From: Thiohalospira halophila DSM 15071
GTDB taxonomy: Bacteria > Pseudomonadota > Gammaproteobacteria > Thiohalospirales > Thiohalospiraceae
NCBI RefSeq assembly: GCF_900112605.1
Contig: NZ_FOMJ01000002.1
Location: 186,001-250,000 of the forward strand
Reading direction: 5' to 3'
Length of the DNA stretch: 64,000 bases
Shown piece by piece: positions 4,170 through 8,173 of the stretch; position 1 is the first letter of the stretch; each line of letters starts with the position of its first letter. The position numbers were made by a program, and so were the translations under genes. A model generated the notes under the pieces. It was not told where the DNA came from. It saw only the letters and a program-made list of their open reading frames with translations, and did no database searches.

Positions 4170-4550
4170 CTACCCGGGCCAGGGTCCGGTGCGCTGACCC
4201 AGGGCATTGAGGGTCAGGCTGCCGTCGCCGGCCTGCGCGCTGCCCTGGAGGGGGCTGGCGGTGATGGTCCAGCCGCCGTCACCTCCCTGACCGGTCGTGA
4301 CCTGGAAGCCGTAGTCATCGCCATTGCCCGTGTTCAGGCCCCCCACGCAGTTGGCGGCGCTGGTGCCGTCCGCCATGCACTGGTTGAGATCCCGCTGGAG
4401 GGCGTGGAGCCGCTCCACCGCCTCCATCCGCCGCTGCTGGGTCTGATACTGGTCGTAGGAATAGCCGGAGAGGCCGGCCAGGATGGCGACCACCGCCAGG
4501 GCGATGAGGAGTTCGACGAGGGTGAAACCGCGGCTGTTGCGGGTGGTCAT
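4170..4550 (-). CDS. Type IV pilin-like (PilE/minor pilin) prepilin
   Basis: A 126-residue prepilin. The leader MTTRNSRG is followed by FTLVELLIALAVVAILAGL, the class III signal cleaved by PilD after Gly8, with Glu at mature position 5. The hydrophobic N-terminal helix continues into a short globular head with two cysteines (NQC and NCVGG), probably a disulfide loop as in PilE-like and minor pilins. GGAGG lies seven bases before the ATG at 4550. It stands alone, with no other pilus genes in the window, so it may be a minor pilin or pseudopilin rather than a major subunit. The product is exported and inserted in the inner membrane before assembly. Confidence 0.85.
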   Translation of the reverse strand: MTTRNSRGFTLVELLIALAVVAILAGLSGYSYDQYQTQQRRMEAVERLHALQRDLNQCMADGTSAANCVGGLNTGNGDDYGFQVTTGQGGDGGWTITASPLQGSAQAGDGSLTLNALGQRTGPWPG

Positions 4551-4614: not shown

Positions 4615-5295
4615 CTACTCTGTCTTCGGGGCCCGCACCAGCAGCGGCGCCATGCGACCGGTGAAGAGGGCCAGCGCCATCCAGGCGGCCGCCGAACCGG
4701 CCACCGCCAGCCACGGCCAGCCGGCAACATGGCCCAGGGCAAAGGTGAGTACCCCGGCGTGGGCGATCCCCTGCTGCATCCAGCTCCAGATCCCCATGGG
4801 CAGGGGGTGGCCGGTGAAGCGCGGCAGCATGTGCTCGCCCAGGCCGTAGAGGAAGAAGGTCAGAAAGCCCAGGGTGAAGAGGTGCAGGGCCGCCGGGTGG
4901 GCCGGACCGCCCGCGAACCAGCCGCCGGCGGGGAGGGCGGCGCCGGCGAGCACCAGGTAGACCACCGCCGCGGCGATGGCCGCCCGGCTGGTGGCCGCCA
5001 GCCCCAGCCCCACGTGGCGGGTAGAGGAGGCCGCCCGTTCCGGGGCGTCGGGGACCAGCGCCAGGGCCTGTTCACGGCTCTGCATGCCCACGCCGGCCAG
5101 CTCGCCGTCGATGACCGTCGCCGGCACCGAGCGGATGCGCAGACGGCGCGCCAGCTCCCGGCCCTCGGACTGGCCCATGTCCACCACGGCGAAGTCGATG
5201 GCCCGCTCGCCGGCCACCCGCTGCCAGACCTGCTCCGCCTGGTGGCAGGTGGGGCACCACTCGGAGACCAGCAGTTGGACCCGGGGTTCGCTCAT
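4615..5295 (-). CDS. Thioredoxin-fold domain fused to a haem-copper-oxidase-like membrane domain
   Basis: A 226-residue two-part protein. Residues 1-82 are thioredoxin-like with CPTC at 14-17 and a cis-Pro strand (SVPATVIDG). Residues about 97-220 form four hydrophobic segments. The segment around LHLFTLGFLTFFLYGLGEH, followed by MLPRF, parallels one in the small membrane protein at 5792-6205 and recalls the haem-ligand helix of NorB/CcoN-type oxidase subunits. It is the last gene of a three-gene unit. Its GGAGGG site overlaps the stop of the lipoyl gene, 14 bases upstream. The fusion suggests electrons or thiols passed between a dithiol and a membrane haem protein, but that is inference; I know of no characterised homologue. 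Confidence 0.75.
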   Translation of the reverse strand: MSEPRVQLLVSEWCPTCHQAEQVWQRVAGERAIDFAVVDMGQSEGRELARRLRIRSVPATVIDGELAGVGMQSREQALALVPDAPERAASSTRHVGLGLAATSRAAIAAAVVYLVLAGAALPAGGWFAGGPAHPAALHLFTLGFLTFFLYGLGEHMLPRFTGHPLPMGIWSWMQQGIAHAGVLTFALGHVAGWPWLAVAGSAAAWMALALFTGRMAPLLVRAPKTE

Positions 5296-5309
5296 GTTGA
5301 TTCCCTCCG

Positions 5310-5795
5310 TCAGTCGGCGCAGCGCATGCACTGGACGTCGTAGCGGTCGATCCAGCCCTGCAGGGCCTCCACCGCCTCGCTGCCCGGCGTCAGCCGCTGC
5401 CAGGCCTCGTCCGGGTTGTCCGGCCGGAAGACCACCAGCCAGGCCTCGCCGTAGGGGTCGACGTTGACGATGTCCGGCTGGCGGCCCACGGCCTCGTTGA
5501 TCGCCTCGATGGTGCCGTCGAAGGGGGCGGGGATGCCGCCGGCCCACTTGCCGGATTCCAGTCGGGCGACCGGTTTGCCGGCGCTCTGGTGGCGGCCGGG
5601 CTTCTTGAATTTGGCGTACTGCACCCGGCCGGCCATGGTCTGGGCCGGGTCGGTGATCCCCAGGGTGAAGCTGCCATCCTCGCGGGGCACGGCCCAGACG
5701 TAGTCCAGGTCGTACCAGCGGTCGGTGGGGATCTCACAGCCGCGATACTCGGTGGTCCCGGTGGTCCCGGTGGCGTCGGTGTCGGCATCACTCAT
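5310..5795 (-). CDS. GcvH-like lipoyl-domain protein with C-terminal CxxC
   Basis: A 161-residue protein related to the H protein of glycine cleavage. The hybrid-motif region VWAVPREDGSFTLGITD leads to ESGKWAGG, where Lys83 sits at the lipoylated position (ESVK in GcvH). PAPFDGTIEAINEAV and DPYGEAWLVVF complete the lipoyl fold. It differs from GcvH in having an Asp/Thr-rich N-terminus and a tail ending in CMRC (Cys156 and Cys159). No gcvP or gcvT is nearby, so a role in glycine cleavage is unlikely. Its start overlaps the stop of the upstream membrane gene as ATGA. It probably carries a lipoyl dithiol that could exchange with the adjacent CPTC thioredoxin domain; this is inferred from gene order. 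Confidence 0.78.
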   Translation of the reverse strand: MSDADTDATGTTGTTEYRGCEIPTDRWYDLDYVWAVPREDGSFTLGITDPAQTMAGRVQYAKFKKPGRHQSAGKPVARLESGKWAGGIPAPFDGTIEAINEAVGRQPDIVNVDPYGEAWLVVFRPDNPDEAWQRLTPGSEAVEALQGWIDRYDVQCMRCAD

Positions 5796-6205
5796 GGCTG
5801 GGCTCCGGACGGGGCCGCGCCGGGGCGGCGCAGCACGGTGAGCAGGATGTTGGCGGCAAAGAGCGCCATGGCCAGCCACGCCAGGACCCCGCCGGTGGTG
5901 GCGATGACCCCGGGGGCGCCGAGCCAGCCGGCCAGCAGGCCCCACAGGCCCAGATGGGCCAGCCAGAACTGGGTGTCGGCCGCCCGCTCGGAGTAGAGGG
6001 CGCGGCCGGCGAAGCGCGGCAGGACGTGGAGGCCGATGCCGTAGATGTGGAACGTGATGAACCCCAGCAGCATGACGTGGCCGTGGACCCGTGGCACATT
6101 GCCGGCCATGAAGCCCGGCTCCGCCAGCCAGAGCAACCCCACGAGCCCGCCGAGCAGGCCGTGGATGAGCCCCGACAGGACGAACCAGCGATTGCGTCGA
6201 TTCAT
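5792..6205 (-). CDS. Small haem-copper-oxidase subunit I-like membrane protein
   Basis: A 137-residue protein with four predicted membrane helices (about 8-28, 42-63, 80-98 and 101-124). The second helix, with VHGHVMLLGFITFHIYG and then HVLPRF, has His41, His43, His53 and His60 and resembles the haem b-binding helix II of NorB and CcoN. It is far shorter than an oxidase subunit (450 or more residues, 12 helices), so it cannot be a complete oxidase. AAGGAGGG precedes the ATG at 6205. It is the first gene of the unit reading away from the FNR/DNR box. It may be a haem-binding electron carrier or sensor; the function is unknown. Confidence 0.75.
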   Translation of the reverse strand: MNRRNRWFVLSGLIHGLLGGLVGLLWLAEPGFMAGNVPRVHGHVMLLGFITFHIYGIGLHVLPRFAGRALYSERAADTQFWLAHLGLWGLLAGWLGAPGVIATTGGVLAWLAMALFAANILLTVLRRPGAAPSGAQP

Positions 6206-6257
6206 GGTGATTCCCTCCTTGCGCGACCCACTCTGGACCCCGGCCCGCCCCGCGCCC

Positions 6258-6271
6258 TTGATCCGTATCAA
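6258..6271. promoter_or_regulatory. Perfect FNR/DNR-type operator between divergent genes
   Basis: TTGATCCGTATCAA is an exact TTGAT-N4-ATCAA palindrome, the consensus for FNR, ANR and DNR proteins. It is centred about 59 bases upstream of the minus-strand membrane gene start, which allows class II activation of that operon. It lies only 14 bases before the GTG of the plus-strand regulator gene, close to its ribosome site, where binding would fit autorepression. The palindrome is seen directly; the regulatory direction is inferred. Confidence 0.88.
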
Positions 6272-6285
6272 GTCGGGAGGGGCCC

Positions 6286-6969
6286 GTGGCGGTTGATCCC
6301 GGGCTGCTGCGCGGCCAGCCGCTGCTGGAGCCCCTGGACGAGGACCAGCTCCGGCGGGTGGCGACCGCCGCCCGTCGGCGCCACCTGGAGAGCGGGGAGC
6401 GGCTCTTCGAACAGGGGGCGCCGGCGGAGGCCTTCTACCTCGTCCGCGAGGGGGCGGTGAAGCTCGCCCGCCTCTCCGAGGCCGGGGACGAGAAGGTGGT
6501 GGAGGTGATCCGGGCCGGCCAGACCTTTGCCGAGGCGGTGATGTTCATGGAGGGGGAGCGCTACCCCGTGGCCGCCGAGGCCACCGCCCCCACCGAACTC
6601 GTCGCCTTCGACAACGCCGCCTTCCGGCGCGAGGTGGCCGCCTCCCCGGAGCTGGCCCTGCGCCTGCTGGCGGCCCTCTCCCGCCGCCTCCACGGCCTGG
6701 TGGCGGAGATCGACGAACTCTCCTTCCACAGCGCCACCCACCGCCTGGTGGGCTACCTCCTGGCCGAGGCCCGCGAGGGGCGGGTGCGTCTGGCCGCCCC
6801 CAAGCAGGTCATCGCCTCGCGGCTGGGCGTTACGCCGGAGACTCTCTCCCGAACGCTGGCCCGCCTGCGCGAGGAGGGGCTGGTCCGGGTGGCGGCGGAC
6901 ACCGTGGATATTATCGACGCCGATGCCCTGGCCGCCCGTGCCGCTGGCAGTGATAGCCGCCGACCCTGA
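6286..6969 (+). CDS. Crp/Fnr-family regulator, DNR-like
   Basis: A 227-residue regulator. A cyclic-nucleotide-binding-type barrel (about residues 12-125) is followed by a dimerisation helix and a winged helix-turn-helix. The recognition helix TPETLSRTLARL has the E-x-x-S-R pattern of proteins that bind TTGAT half-sites, and such a site lies directly upstream. The N-terminus lacks the cysteine cluster that binds the FNR [4Fe-4S] centre, so it resembles DNR, which senses nitric oxide through haem. The start is GTG with GGGAGGGG just upstream. It is divergent from the lipoyl/thioredoxin/membrane unit and followed by a hemerythrin gene. NO sensing is an inference from family and context. Confidence 0.9.
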   Translation: MAVDPGLLRGQPLLEPLDEDQLRRVATAARRRHLESGERLFEQGAPAEAFYLVREGAVKLARLSEAGDEKVVEVIRAGQTFAEAVMFMEGERYPVAAEATAPTELVAFDNAAFRREVAASPELALRLLAALSRRLHGLVAEIDELSFHSATHRLVGYLLAEAREGRVRLAAPKQVIASRLGVTPETLSRTLARLREEGLVRVAADTVDIIDADALAARAAGSDSRRP

Positions 6970-7064: not shown

Positions 7065-7598
7065 ATGGATCCCGATTCCCTGCTGGGGCCCGCCGCCCCC
7101 GGCCCCGAGGACCCGCTGGGGTTCTGGGCCGCCTGCCACCGGCGCATGCTGGAGAATATCGCCACCCTGGAGCGGCTGGCCGGGCATCTGCGTCATACCG
7201 GGGTCGACGATCAGGCCGCGGCCGCTGCTGACCGCGTCCGGCGCTACTTCAACGAGGCGGCGCCGCGCCATCATGCGGATGAGGAAGAGGACCTCTTCCC
7301 TCGACTGCGGTCCGCCTGCCCCGGGGATCGCGCACTGCATGCCGAGCTGGATGACCTGGCGGGGGGGCACGGGGAACTTGACCGCGCCTGGGCGACCCTG
7401 GAACCGGCCCTGGCCGCTATCGCTGAGGGGCATGAGGCAATTCTGGAGCCGGCCGAGTACGTGGCCACGGTCCGCGACCACGTTGCCCGGGAGGACGAGG
7501 TCGTTGCTCCTCGGCTGCGCGCCGCTCTCACGGCCGACGACCTTCGCGCTGCAGGCACGGCCATGGCTGCCCGGCGCGGGCTGGCGCCGCCGGTCTGA
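7065..7598 (+). CDS. Hemerythrin HHE-domain protein
   Basis: A 177-residue all-helical protein with the metal-ligand pattern of hemerythrin-like proteins: CHRRM, RHHADEEEDLFP (H-x3-E type), HGELD and DHVAREDEVV. Proteins of this class bind O2 or NO at a di-iron site or help repair Fe-S damage; a few act in signalling. GAGGAGG lies seven bases before the ATG at 7065. It follows the DNR-like regulator by 95 bases in the same direction, and hemerythrins often belong to NO-stress regulons, so a protective role is plausible. No membrane segment or signal peptide is present, so it should be cytosolic. Confidence 0.88.
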   Translation: MDPDSLLGPAAPGPEDPLGFWAACHRRMLENIATLERLAGHLRHTGVDDQAAAAADRVRRYFNEAAPRHHADEEEDLFPRLRSACPGDRALHAELDDLAGGHGELDRAWATLEPALAAIAEGHEAILEPAEYVATVRDHVAREDEVVAPRLRAALTADDLRAAGTAMAARRGLAPPV

Positions 7599-7712: not shown

Positions 7713-7940
7713 ATGAAGGTGGAACGCACGGAGGACGGCCACATCCTCCTGGAACTGGAGGTGGGCGCCGGCAACAAGCTCGCCGACGAGATCCATGCCA
7801 ACGCCGCGGAGATGCGCTCCCCGGTCCTGGAGCTCTCCAGCCTGCTCCGGGAGGCGCGGTACAACGCCAGCAACGACTTCCGCCAGCCCCCCAATGCCTG
7901 GGGCCCGGACGCCGTGCCGCCGCCGTCCACCGAGACCTGA
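7713..7940 (+). CDS. Small protein of unknown function (75 aa)
   Basis: I do not recognise this 75-residue protein. It begins MKVERTEDGHILLELEVG, continues as an amphipathic helix rich in Glu and Leu, and ends in a Pro-rich tail (PPNAWGPDAVPPPSTET). GAGGAGGAGCAAC before the ATG at 7713 is a strong ribosome site. It has no signal peptide or membrane segment. It lies 114 bases after the hemerythrin gene and 26 bases before a second small gene with an equally good ribosome site. The pair looks like a small operon, possibly part of the adjacent regulator's target set. Confidence 0.7.
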   Translation: MKVERTEDGHILLELEVGAGNKLADEIHANAAEMRSPVLELSSLLREARYNASNDFRQPPNAWGPDAVPPPSTET

Positions 7941-7966: not shown

Positions 7967-8173
7967 ATGCGCGTGATCAACGAGGACAAGGAGACCCTGA
8001 AGGTCTCCATCCCGCCCGATAAGGCGCAGCACCTGCTTACCGGTCTGTGCGAGGATGCCGACAAGCTCGGTGACACCGCCCGGGAGCTGGCCGAGGCCCT
8101 GGAGGCTGCCGGGGTCGAGGCCCCGGCGGAGCTGGACGCCGAGCACTTCGAGCACGTCGGCCCCAACGAGTAG
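7967..8173 (+). CDS. Small acidic protein of unknown function (68 aa)
   Basis: A 68-residue, strongly acidic protein that I do not recognise. MRVINEDKETLKVSIPPD is followed by a helix with one Cys (GLCEDADKLGDTARELAEAL) and an acidic C-terminus. AGGAGGAACAGAC precedes the ATG at 7967. It follows the 75-residue gene by 26 bases and is closed by a strong terminator eight bases after the stop, so the two form one transcription unit. The expressed-gene features (good ribosome sites, terminator, codon use like the neighbours) make it credible despite its size. Confidence 0.7.
   Translation: MRVINEDKETLKVSIPPDKAQHLLTGLCEDADKLGDTARELAEALEAAGVEAPAELDAEHFEHVGPNE

Follow-up and report, generated by a model that had tools for sequence, protein, structure and literature searches.

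A conserved operon of a lipoyl carrier, a thioredoxin and small oxidase-type membrane units below a DNR-type site in Thiohalospira halophila: a candidate nitric oxide-responsive module

Few settings are known for dedicated lipoyl carriers beyond the classical dehydrogenases, and the published ideas closest to the locus described here are, as far as the available parts of the papers go, LbpA in the sHdr system of sulfur oxidation (PMC6067878; PMC10332631) and the GcvH-L stress operon (PMC4518038). The available text on LbpA names as its hallmark a Cys near the N-terminus and another near the C-terminus, both absent from GcvH (PMC6067878). With regard to nitric oxide (NO), the available passages of PMC1274295 place nnrS in the NO regulon, give the DNR consensus as CTTGATnnnnATCAAG (section 7), and predict DNR-controlled NO detoxification for the cgb-COG0543 operon of Acidithiobacillus ferrooxidans.

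Here we analyze three adjacent genes, A, B and C, in a 64,000-nucleotide stretch of the Thiohalospira halophila DSM 15071 genome, which is referred to as the window. That these genes form an NO-responsive defence or respiration module is a reading to which we give about an even chance. A literature search, which covered few subscription papers and preprints, found no paper on the A-B-C operon.

Layout of the operon and its promoter region

The stop of A and the start of B overlap in ATGA, and 14 bases separate B from C (Table 1). A preliminary description of this DNA had proposed such a tightly coupled operon with a perfect TTGAT-N4-ATCAA site upstream, a divergent DNR-like regulator and a hemerythrin beyond it, and each of these features was recovered, the hemerythrin by Pfam. 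The core box, TTGATCCGTATCAA at 6258-6271, occurs once in the window and 0 times in 100 shuffles, and it extends to the 16-base site of Table 1. In the entire genome of 2,687,697 bases, the perfect core and the 16-base form were each found at this position only, and the control, the core pattern read backwards, had 0 occurrences. The center of the site is located 59 bases upstream of the A start, a spacing that would suit binding of an activator around -41.5 if the leader measures ~18 bases.

Table 1. Features of the A-B-C locus, in positions of the window
Feature	Position	Strand	Description
Gene A, 137 aa	5792-6205	minus	Four-helix membrane protein, haem-copper-oxidase/NnrS-type single unit
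Gene B, 161 aa	5310-5795	minus	LbpA-clade lipoyl carrier; Lys83 is the predicted lipoyl site
Gene C, 226 aa	4615-5295	minus	Thioredoxin domain (Cys14-x-x-Cys17) and four-helix membrane unit
DNR-type site CTTGATCCGTATCAAG	6257-6272	no strand	Perfect match to the DNR consensus
DNR-like CRP/FNR-family regulator	6286-6969	plus	Divergent from A-B-C
Hemerythrin HHE protein	7065-7598	plus	Identified by Pfam; beyond the regulator; recurrent neighbor of B

The closest solved relative of the regulator is DNR of P. aeruginosa (3dkw, E 5.8e-44; best non-DNR match 4.2e-28), and this resemblance, together with the CTTGATnnnnATCAAG-type target site, points to a regulator of the DNR type. The genome holds two hemerythrins in total. 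Beside the operon, two small genes without a confident Pfam family (75 and 68 aa; 7713-7940 and 7967-8173, plus strand) follow the hemerythrin, and a type IV pilin-like protein with an N-terminal methylation motif is encoded directly downstream (4170-4550, minus strand).

The lipoyl carrier and the paired membrane units

B belongs to the Pfam family GCV_H (E 3.7e-29) and misses both gcvH equivalog models, with 68 bits for a cut-off of 115.85 and 98.9 bits for one of 117. A tree of 87 sequences and 149 columns, in which long branches were flagged, placed 49 B sequences in one clade (96/92) that is sister to LbpA1 (100/96) and split LbpA and B together from GcvH (100/99). The model cut-offs and the tree thus rule out B as the glycine cleavage protein GcvH, and the earlier label of a GcvH-like lipoyl protein holds for the fold and fails for the identity. 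The canonical gcvH of this genome lies elsewhere, on C5, between genes recognized by eye as those of the T- and P-proteins. Lys83, which aligns with the lipoyl Lys of GcvH, is invariant in the 49 aligned B sequences, as are both Cys of Cys156-Met-Arg-Cys159, and Cys20 is kept at 90% or more. The invariant Lys and the LplA-type ligases found next to B in other genomes make it very probable that B is lipoylated.

With its conserved lipoyl Lys, its N- and C-terminal Cys and its grouping with LbpA, B carries the marks of LbpA in its sequence. Its location argues against its being the LbpA of an sHdr system, as B is neither in nor next to an shdr-like cluster. Sulfur-oxidation genes were found near B in just 2 of 81 loci (L073 and L074, among the best 80 of 107 relatives plus the window), with none in the window, and on this ground B is filed only as a relative of LbpA. 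Three further matches of the sulfur-gene survey, two to ligases and one HdrB-like at 4.3 kb in L126, stand outside this count. Judged by its sequence, B adds a third clade to LbpA1 and LbpA2, the lipoate carriers of sulfur oxidation. Apart from the operon, on another contig, the same genome has an sHdr-like cluster that contains its own LbpA1, LbpA2 and ligase (names assigned by eye and from papers).

A is COX1-like in Pfam (E 1.5e-7), as had been proposed, but its 31.1 bits stay beneath the cut-off of 34.8 bits. AlphaFold models show four helices for A (pLDDT 89.7) and a thioredoxin followed by four helices for C (pLDDT 92.1). The proposed thioredoxin-membrane fusion in C was borne out by a match to Thioredoxin_3 (PF13192; E 2.4e-9, 37.5 vs 24.8 bits) and a membrane C-terminus in Pfam; residues 1-86 of the model match 1v98 (Z 12.0), and Cys14 and Cys17 are invariant. 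A and the membrane portion of C align with each other as paralogs (hhalign 99.8%, E 6e-28), and each is a single four-helix unit of the haem-copper-oxidase/NnrS type. Three His of A (His41, His43 and His60) are invariant in 40 aligned sequences, and two of C (His138 and His155) in 37.

In structure, A matches a single four-helix unit, in most cases the last, of haem-copper oxidases and NorB (3mk7 302-470, Z 14.8, rmsd 4.5; 7o37 334-480, Z 14.5, rmsd 2.7), and the C membrane unit matches 9g83 (Z 12.5, rmsd 2.3). Helical bundles may reach Z 13 by chance, but for A the sequence agrees (CcoN E 8.8e-5; own CcoN 95.7%, E 1.1e-8), and His41/His43 align with the His-x-His of CcoN, which ligates the haems of that protein. 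The membrane unit of C resembles the last third of NnrS (hhalign 96.1%, E 2.9e-9), and A matches the first third weakly (77.5%). Binding of haem by A and C is likely in view of these invariant residues. Two other assignments were rejected. A is not a COX1, CcoN or NorB subunit I, given its score under the cut-off and its 137 aa and four helices against a twelve-helix subunit; neither A nor C is NnrS, as the Pfam scan gave no PF05940 match for either of them and the matches of relatives are weak and below the cut-off.

Occurrence and genomic neighborhood

Among 369 genomes of the gammaproteobacterial class searched with A, 24 had a match at E 1e-6 or better, and the ten with strong matches (the window's own genome excluded) were fetched for comparison of loci. 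Nine of these ten contain the full A-B-C in the same order, and the tenth holds A alone, beside hemerythrin, DUF2249-like and haem d1 genes. Absence of a conserved neighborhood had been named in advance as evidence against the proposed system; the conservation observed is far above chance. The weak matches to A that other gammaproteobacteria gave (E 1e-6 to 1e-8) were set aside, as the seven inspected belong to a different operon. This other recurring operon (L019-L022, L024, L028 and L030) consists of cytochrome c genes, a COX1-like protein of ~170-180 aa with an H-x-H-x-N-L-L-G-W motif, a thioredoxin-like CxxC lipoprotein and a small membrane protein, so that here, too, a CxxC protein goes together with a small unit of oxidase-like type.

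When titled genome records were scanned with the B alignment, 107 relatives emerged, of which the best 80 were kept; they come from Thioalkalivibrio, Acidithiobacillus, Acidiferrobacter, Sulfuriferula, Thiobacillus, Sideroxydans, Burkholderiales and many MAGs. Genes in these loci were called by a simple script that scored ORFs on their G+C by codon position and on signs of a ribosome site, so that starts may be off, and five B genes missed by one pattern had their positions entered by hand. Two architectures emerged among the best 80. In the A-B-C form, A was called in 48/80 and full-length C in 42/80, with A-B gaps mostly of -4 to 6 bases. In the second form (23/80), B is accompanied by a stand-alone thioredoxin of ~80 residues, homologous to the first domain of C, without A or the membrane unit of C. 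Profile matches to A and to the C membrane unit were present in the same 18 of 22 host genomes and absent from the other four, which suggests that they form a pair; 17 of the 18 have two matches, and the remaining one, G391, has a single match, C being short in its gene calls. None of the three Acidithiobacillus genomes searched had either membrane unit.

Neighbors within 3 kb of B were surveyed in 81 loci (best 80 of 107 plus the window), with HHE and other neighbor models whose members were drawn from no more than 7 kb around B and which therefore favor near matches. A hemerythrin was found in 48/81, a DNR-like regulator in 32/81, a stand-alone thioredoxin, by profile, in 25/81, DUF488 in 16/81, DUF2249 in 14/81, an LplA-type ligase in 12/81, a globin in 11/81 and Rrf2 in 2/81. 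The expectation that dnr, nnrS or hemerythrin genes would recur beside homologs was confirmed. In 60 of these 81 loci, one or more genes of NO type were near, a class that takes in hemerythrin, DNR-like, globin, NsrR-like and DUF2249 genes; the absence of any such gene from the other 21 counts against an NO module. Hemerythrin copies in the same loci fall off sharply with distance from B (70 at <2 kb, 1 at 2-4 kb and 0 at 4-10 kb). Many loci are near relatives, and at 85% B identity the best 80 of 107 plus the window collapse to 30, of which 14 have HHE, 11 the regulator, 10 the box, 23 some NO sign and 7 no NO sign whatever.

The DNR-type box is likewise enriched. With up to one mismatch it was present at 37 of 78 operon heads (best 80 of 107 plus the window, minus heads with too little upstream sequence) and at 16 of 575 control genes more than 3 kb from B (Fisher p 3e-26, for loci that are not independent); perfect boxes numbered 20 and 6, respectively, and most operon-head boxes lie 56-78 bases upstream. 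Another box count covered 85 heads, with the loci of five fetched A-locus genomes beside the 80. These observations, together with the resemblance of the regulator to DNR, make NO-linked regulation of the operon quite probable.

Individual loci add to this context. In Thioalkalivibrio halophilus (L072), the operon is divergent from a gene for the NO-inducible flavohaemoprotein Hmp (476.8 vs a cut-off of 432 bits) and adjoins an NsrR-like gene that scores below its cut-off (159.6 vs 182 bits). Haem d1 genes, recognized by eye, and an NsrR-like gene are close in L067, nir/haem d1 genes in L046, where NirJ was identified by model, and NnrS is encoded directly downstream of C in L103. In the Acidithiobacillus loci, B, the thioredoxin and HHE adjoin globin-reductase genes, the kind of operon whose A. 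ferrooxidans member is the predicted DNR-controlled NO detoxifier of PMC1274295. Of the two settings envisaged in the preliminary description, NO or low oxygen, the former is thus the better supported, by the Hmp, NsrR-like, nir/haem d1 and NnrS neighbors. A neighbor cluster initially labeled NnrS (430-aa proteins in L041/L064, L046, L067 and L095) was discarded, as two scanned members had no Pfam match at 1e-3, and only L103 and L041/L064 are therefore counted as true NnrS neighbors; the count of 60/81 is unchanged because the loci concerned have HHE too.

Other recurring genes were observed in these neighborhoods. Multi-helix proteins of ~430 aa, weakly A-like (hhalign 82%), lie beside NO genes (L041:6523-7827, L046:7507-8799, L067:11115-12410 and L095:6996-8258). 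One conserved block, shared by L104, L089 and some ten loci like them, consists of a ligase, a DNR-like regulator, B, two hemerythrins, a thioredoxin, DUF488 and a CopD-like gene. A 544-aa protein in which DUF116 and the catalytic domain of a lipoyl ligase (PF21948) are fused (L041:1054-2688, also in L046 and L064) is encoded among UbiV/UbiU-like and radical-SAM genes that form a row with it, at a distance of a few kb from A-B-C or A.

The genome of the window encodes a single NnrS and a single COX1-family oxidase of full length, which is cbb3 by eye. No NorB was among its two COX1-family matches, namely this oxidase and A, and no match to cytochrome cd1 was found in it, which counts against an NO module. 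Across the 22 host genomes, NnrS exceeds its cut-off in 17 and a cd1-family match at E <1e-100 occurs in 8.

Proposed function and relation to known systems

Read from sequence, the activities of the module could be as follows. NO, suggested by the genomic context, would activate the DNR-like regulator, which would bind the CTTGAT-N4-ATCAAG site and switch on A-B-C. B would serve as a cytosolic lipoyl carrier, lipoylated at Lys83 by an LplA-type ligase, which in this genome would probably come from the sulfur-oxidation cluster. Electrons would be exchanged between the lipoyl dithiol and C-terminal CxxC of B and the CxxC of the C thioredoxin domain; that B and this thioredoxin are redox partners is likely, since the B-thioredoxin pair persists without A. 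In the membrane, A would pair with the membrane half of C, their conserved His holding b-type haem, and the pair would reduce or bind NO, the dithiol relay supplying the electrons. A flow of electrons from dithiols to haem is a tentative suggestion. More doubtful still is a new NO-processing membrane enzyme in which A and the C membrane half form a split haem core supplied by a dedicated lipoyl carrier and thioredoxin rather than by quinol or cytochrome c.

The operon might instead be an accessory of sulfur oxidation, in which B ferries sulfur intermediates of sHdr, C and A pass electrons into the membrane, and the NO-type neighbors reflect co-regulation with anaerobic growth. The sister position of B to LbpA1 and its LbpA-type terminal Cys, a feature described in the available part of PMC6067878, speak for this role, as do L073 and L074, in which A-B-C lies amid DsrE-, TusA- and SQR-like genes within 3.3 kb. 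LbpA2 is present in 20 of the 22 B-bearing genomes searched, which keeps a sulfur role in consideration; the two without it are an Acidiferrobacter MAG, where a ligase adjoins B, and G397, which holds A-B-C. We nevertheless consider this role improbable, given the rarity of sulfur-oxidation genes in the 81 loci (best 80 of 107 plus the window) and the LbpA1, LbpA2 and ligase that the sHdr cluster on another contig has of its own, and it leaves the DNR-type control and the HHE neighbors unaccounted for.

About equally improbable, in our estimate, is a function in thiol repair, with dihydrolipoyl-B and the thioredoxin denitrosating or reducing NO-damaged thiols, and A and C merely anchoring the thioredoxin or disposing of released NO. 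Denitrosation by lipoyl groups and thioredoxin is established chemistry, and the loci with B and a thioredoxin but neither A nor the C membrane unit make the soluble pair look like the core. A lipoyl-dependent defence in Mycobacterium, cited in the available passages of PMC4518038, is also in line with repair, which leaves the invariant His of A and C and their strict pairing unexplained. Least likely of all is a low-oxygen module of FNR type, in which the site would serve FNR and the haem unit would handle O2 or quinone electrons, with no direct role for NO. Near the operon in L064, L070 and L071 lie genes that we take to be UbiU/UbiV-like, and UbiU/UbiV act in oxygen-independent ubiquinone synthesis. 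DNR and FNR boxes are alike, according to the available text of PMC1274295, but the divergent regulator is DNR-like, and the Hmp, NsrR-like, NnrS, nir and globin neighbors point to NO.

If the NO-responsive module is confirmed, lipoic acid would have a new job: an NO-controlled lipoyl carrier, found mostly in genomes that also have sulfur-oxidation lipoate carriers, would tie lipoate to nitrogen-oxide stress, and genes resembling glycine cleavage protein H would be re-assigned. Should the split haem core prove real, lipoate would gain a new dedicated carrier role, and the oxidase fold a living example built of one unit. How one four-helix unit of that fold binds haem could be studied on the A/C pair as a small test system.

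B resembles LbpA1 and LbpA2 of sHdr in its GCV_H fold, its lipoyl Lys in ESGK and its N- and C-terminal Cys, as far as these are described in the available parts of PMC6067878 and PMC10332631, but it forms a clade of its own, ends in CMRC and has sulfur-oxidation genes nearby in the two loci named above only (best 80 of 107 plus the window). With GcvH-L/LplA2 of the class-M sirtuin operon, it shares a lipoyl carrier outside glycine cleavage, a dedicated ligase, oxidoreductases and a setting of redox stress, according to the available passages of PMC4518038; the partners there are a sirtuin and a macrodomain, whereas those of B are a thioredoxin, membrane units, a DNR-like regulator and hemerythrins, and no sirtuin or macrodomain genes were noticed by eye in the listed neighborhoods. 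The C membrane unit is like the last third of NnrS (PF05940) and A weakly like the first, but each is a single four-helix unit below the NnrS cut-off, whereas the NnrS model spans 371 positions. Similarly, A corresponds to one four-helix unit of cbb3 CcoN and NorB with the His-x-His kept, but it consists of that unit alone, so that the full set of oxidase metal ligands could not sit in A by itself. The cgb-COG0543 operon finds a parallel in other Acidithiobacillus species, in which HHE, thioredoxin and B have globin-reductase genes as neighbors, and it differs in that the available passages of PMC1274295 do not mention a lipoyl protein.
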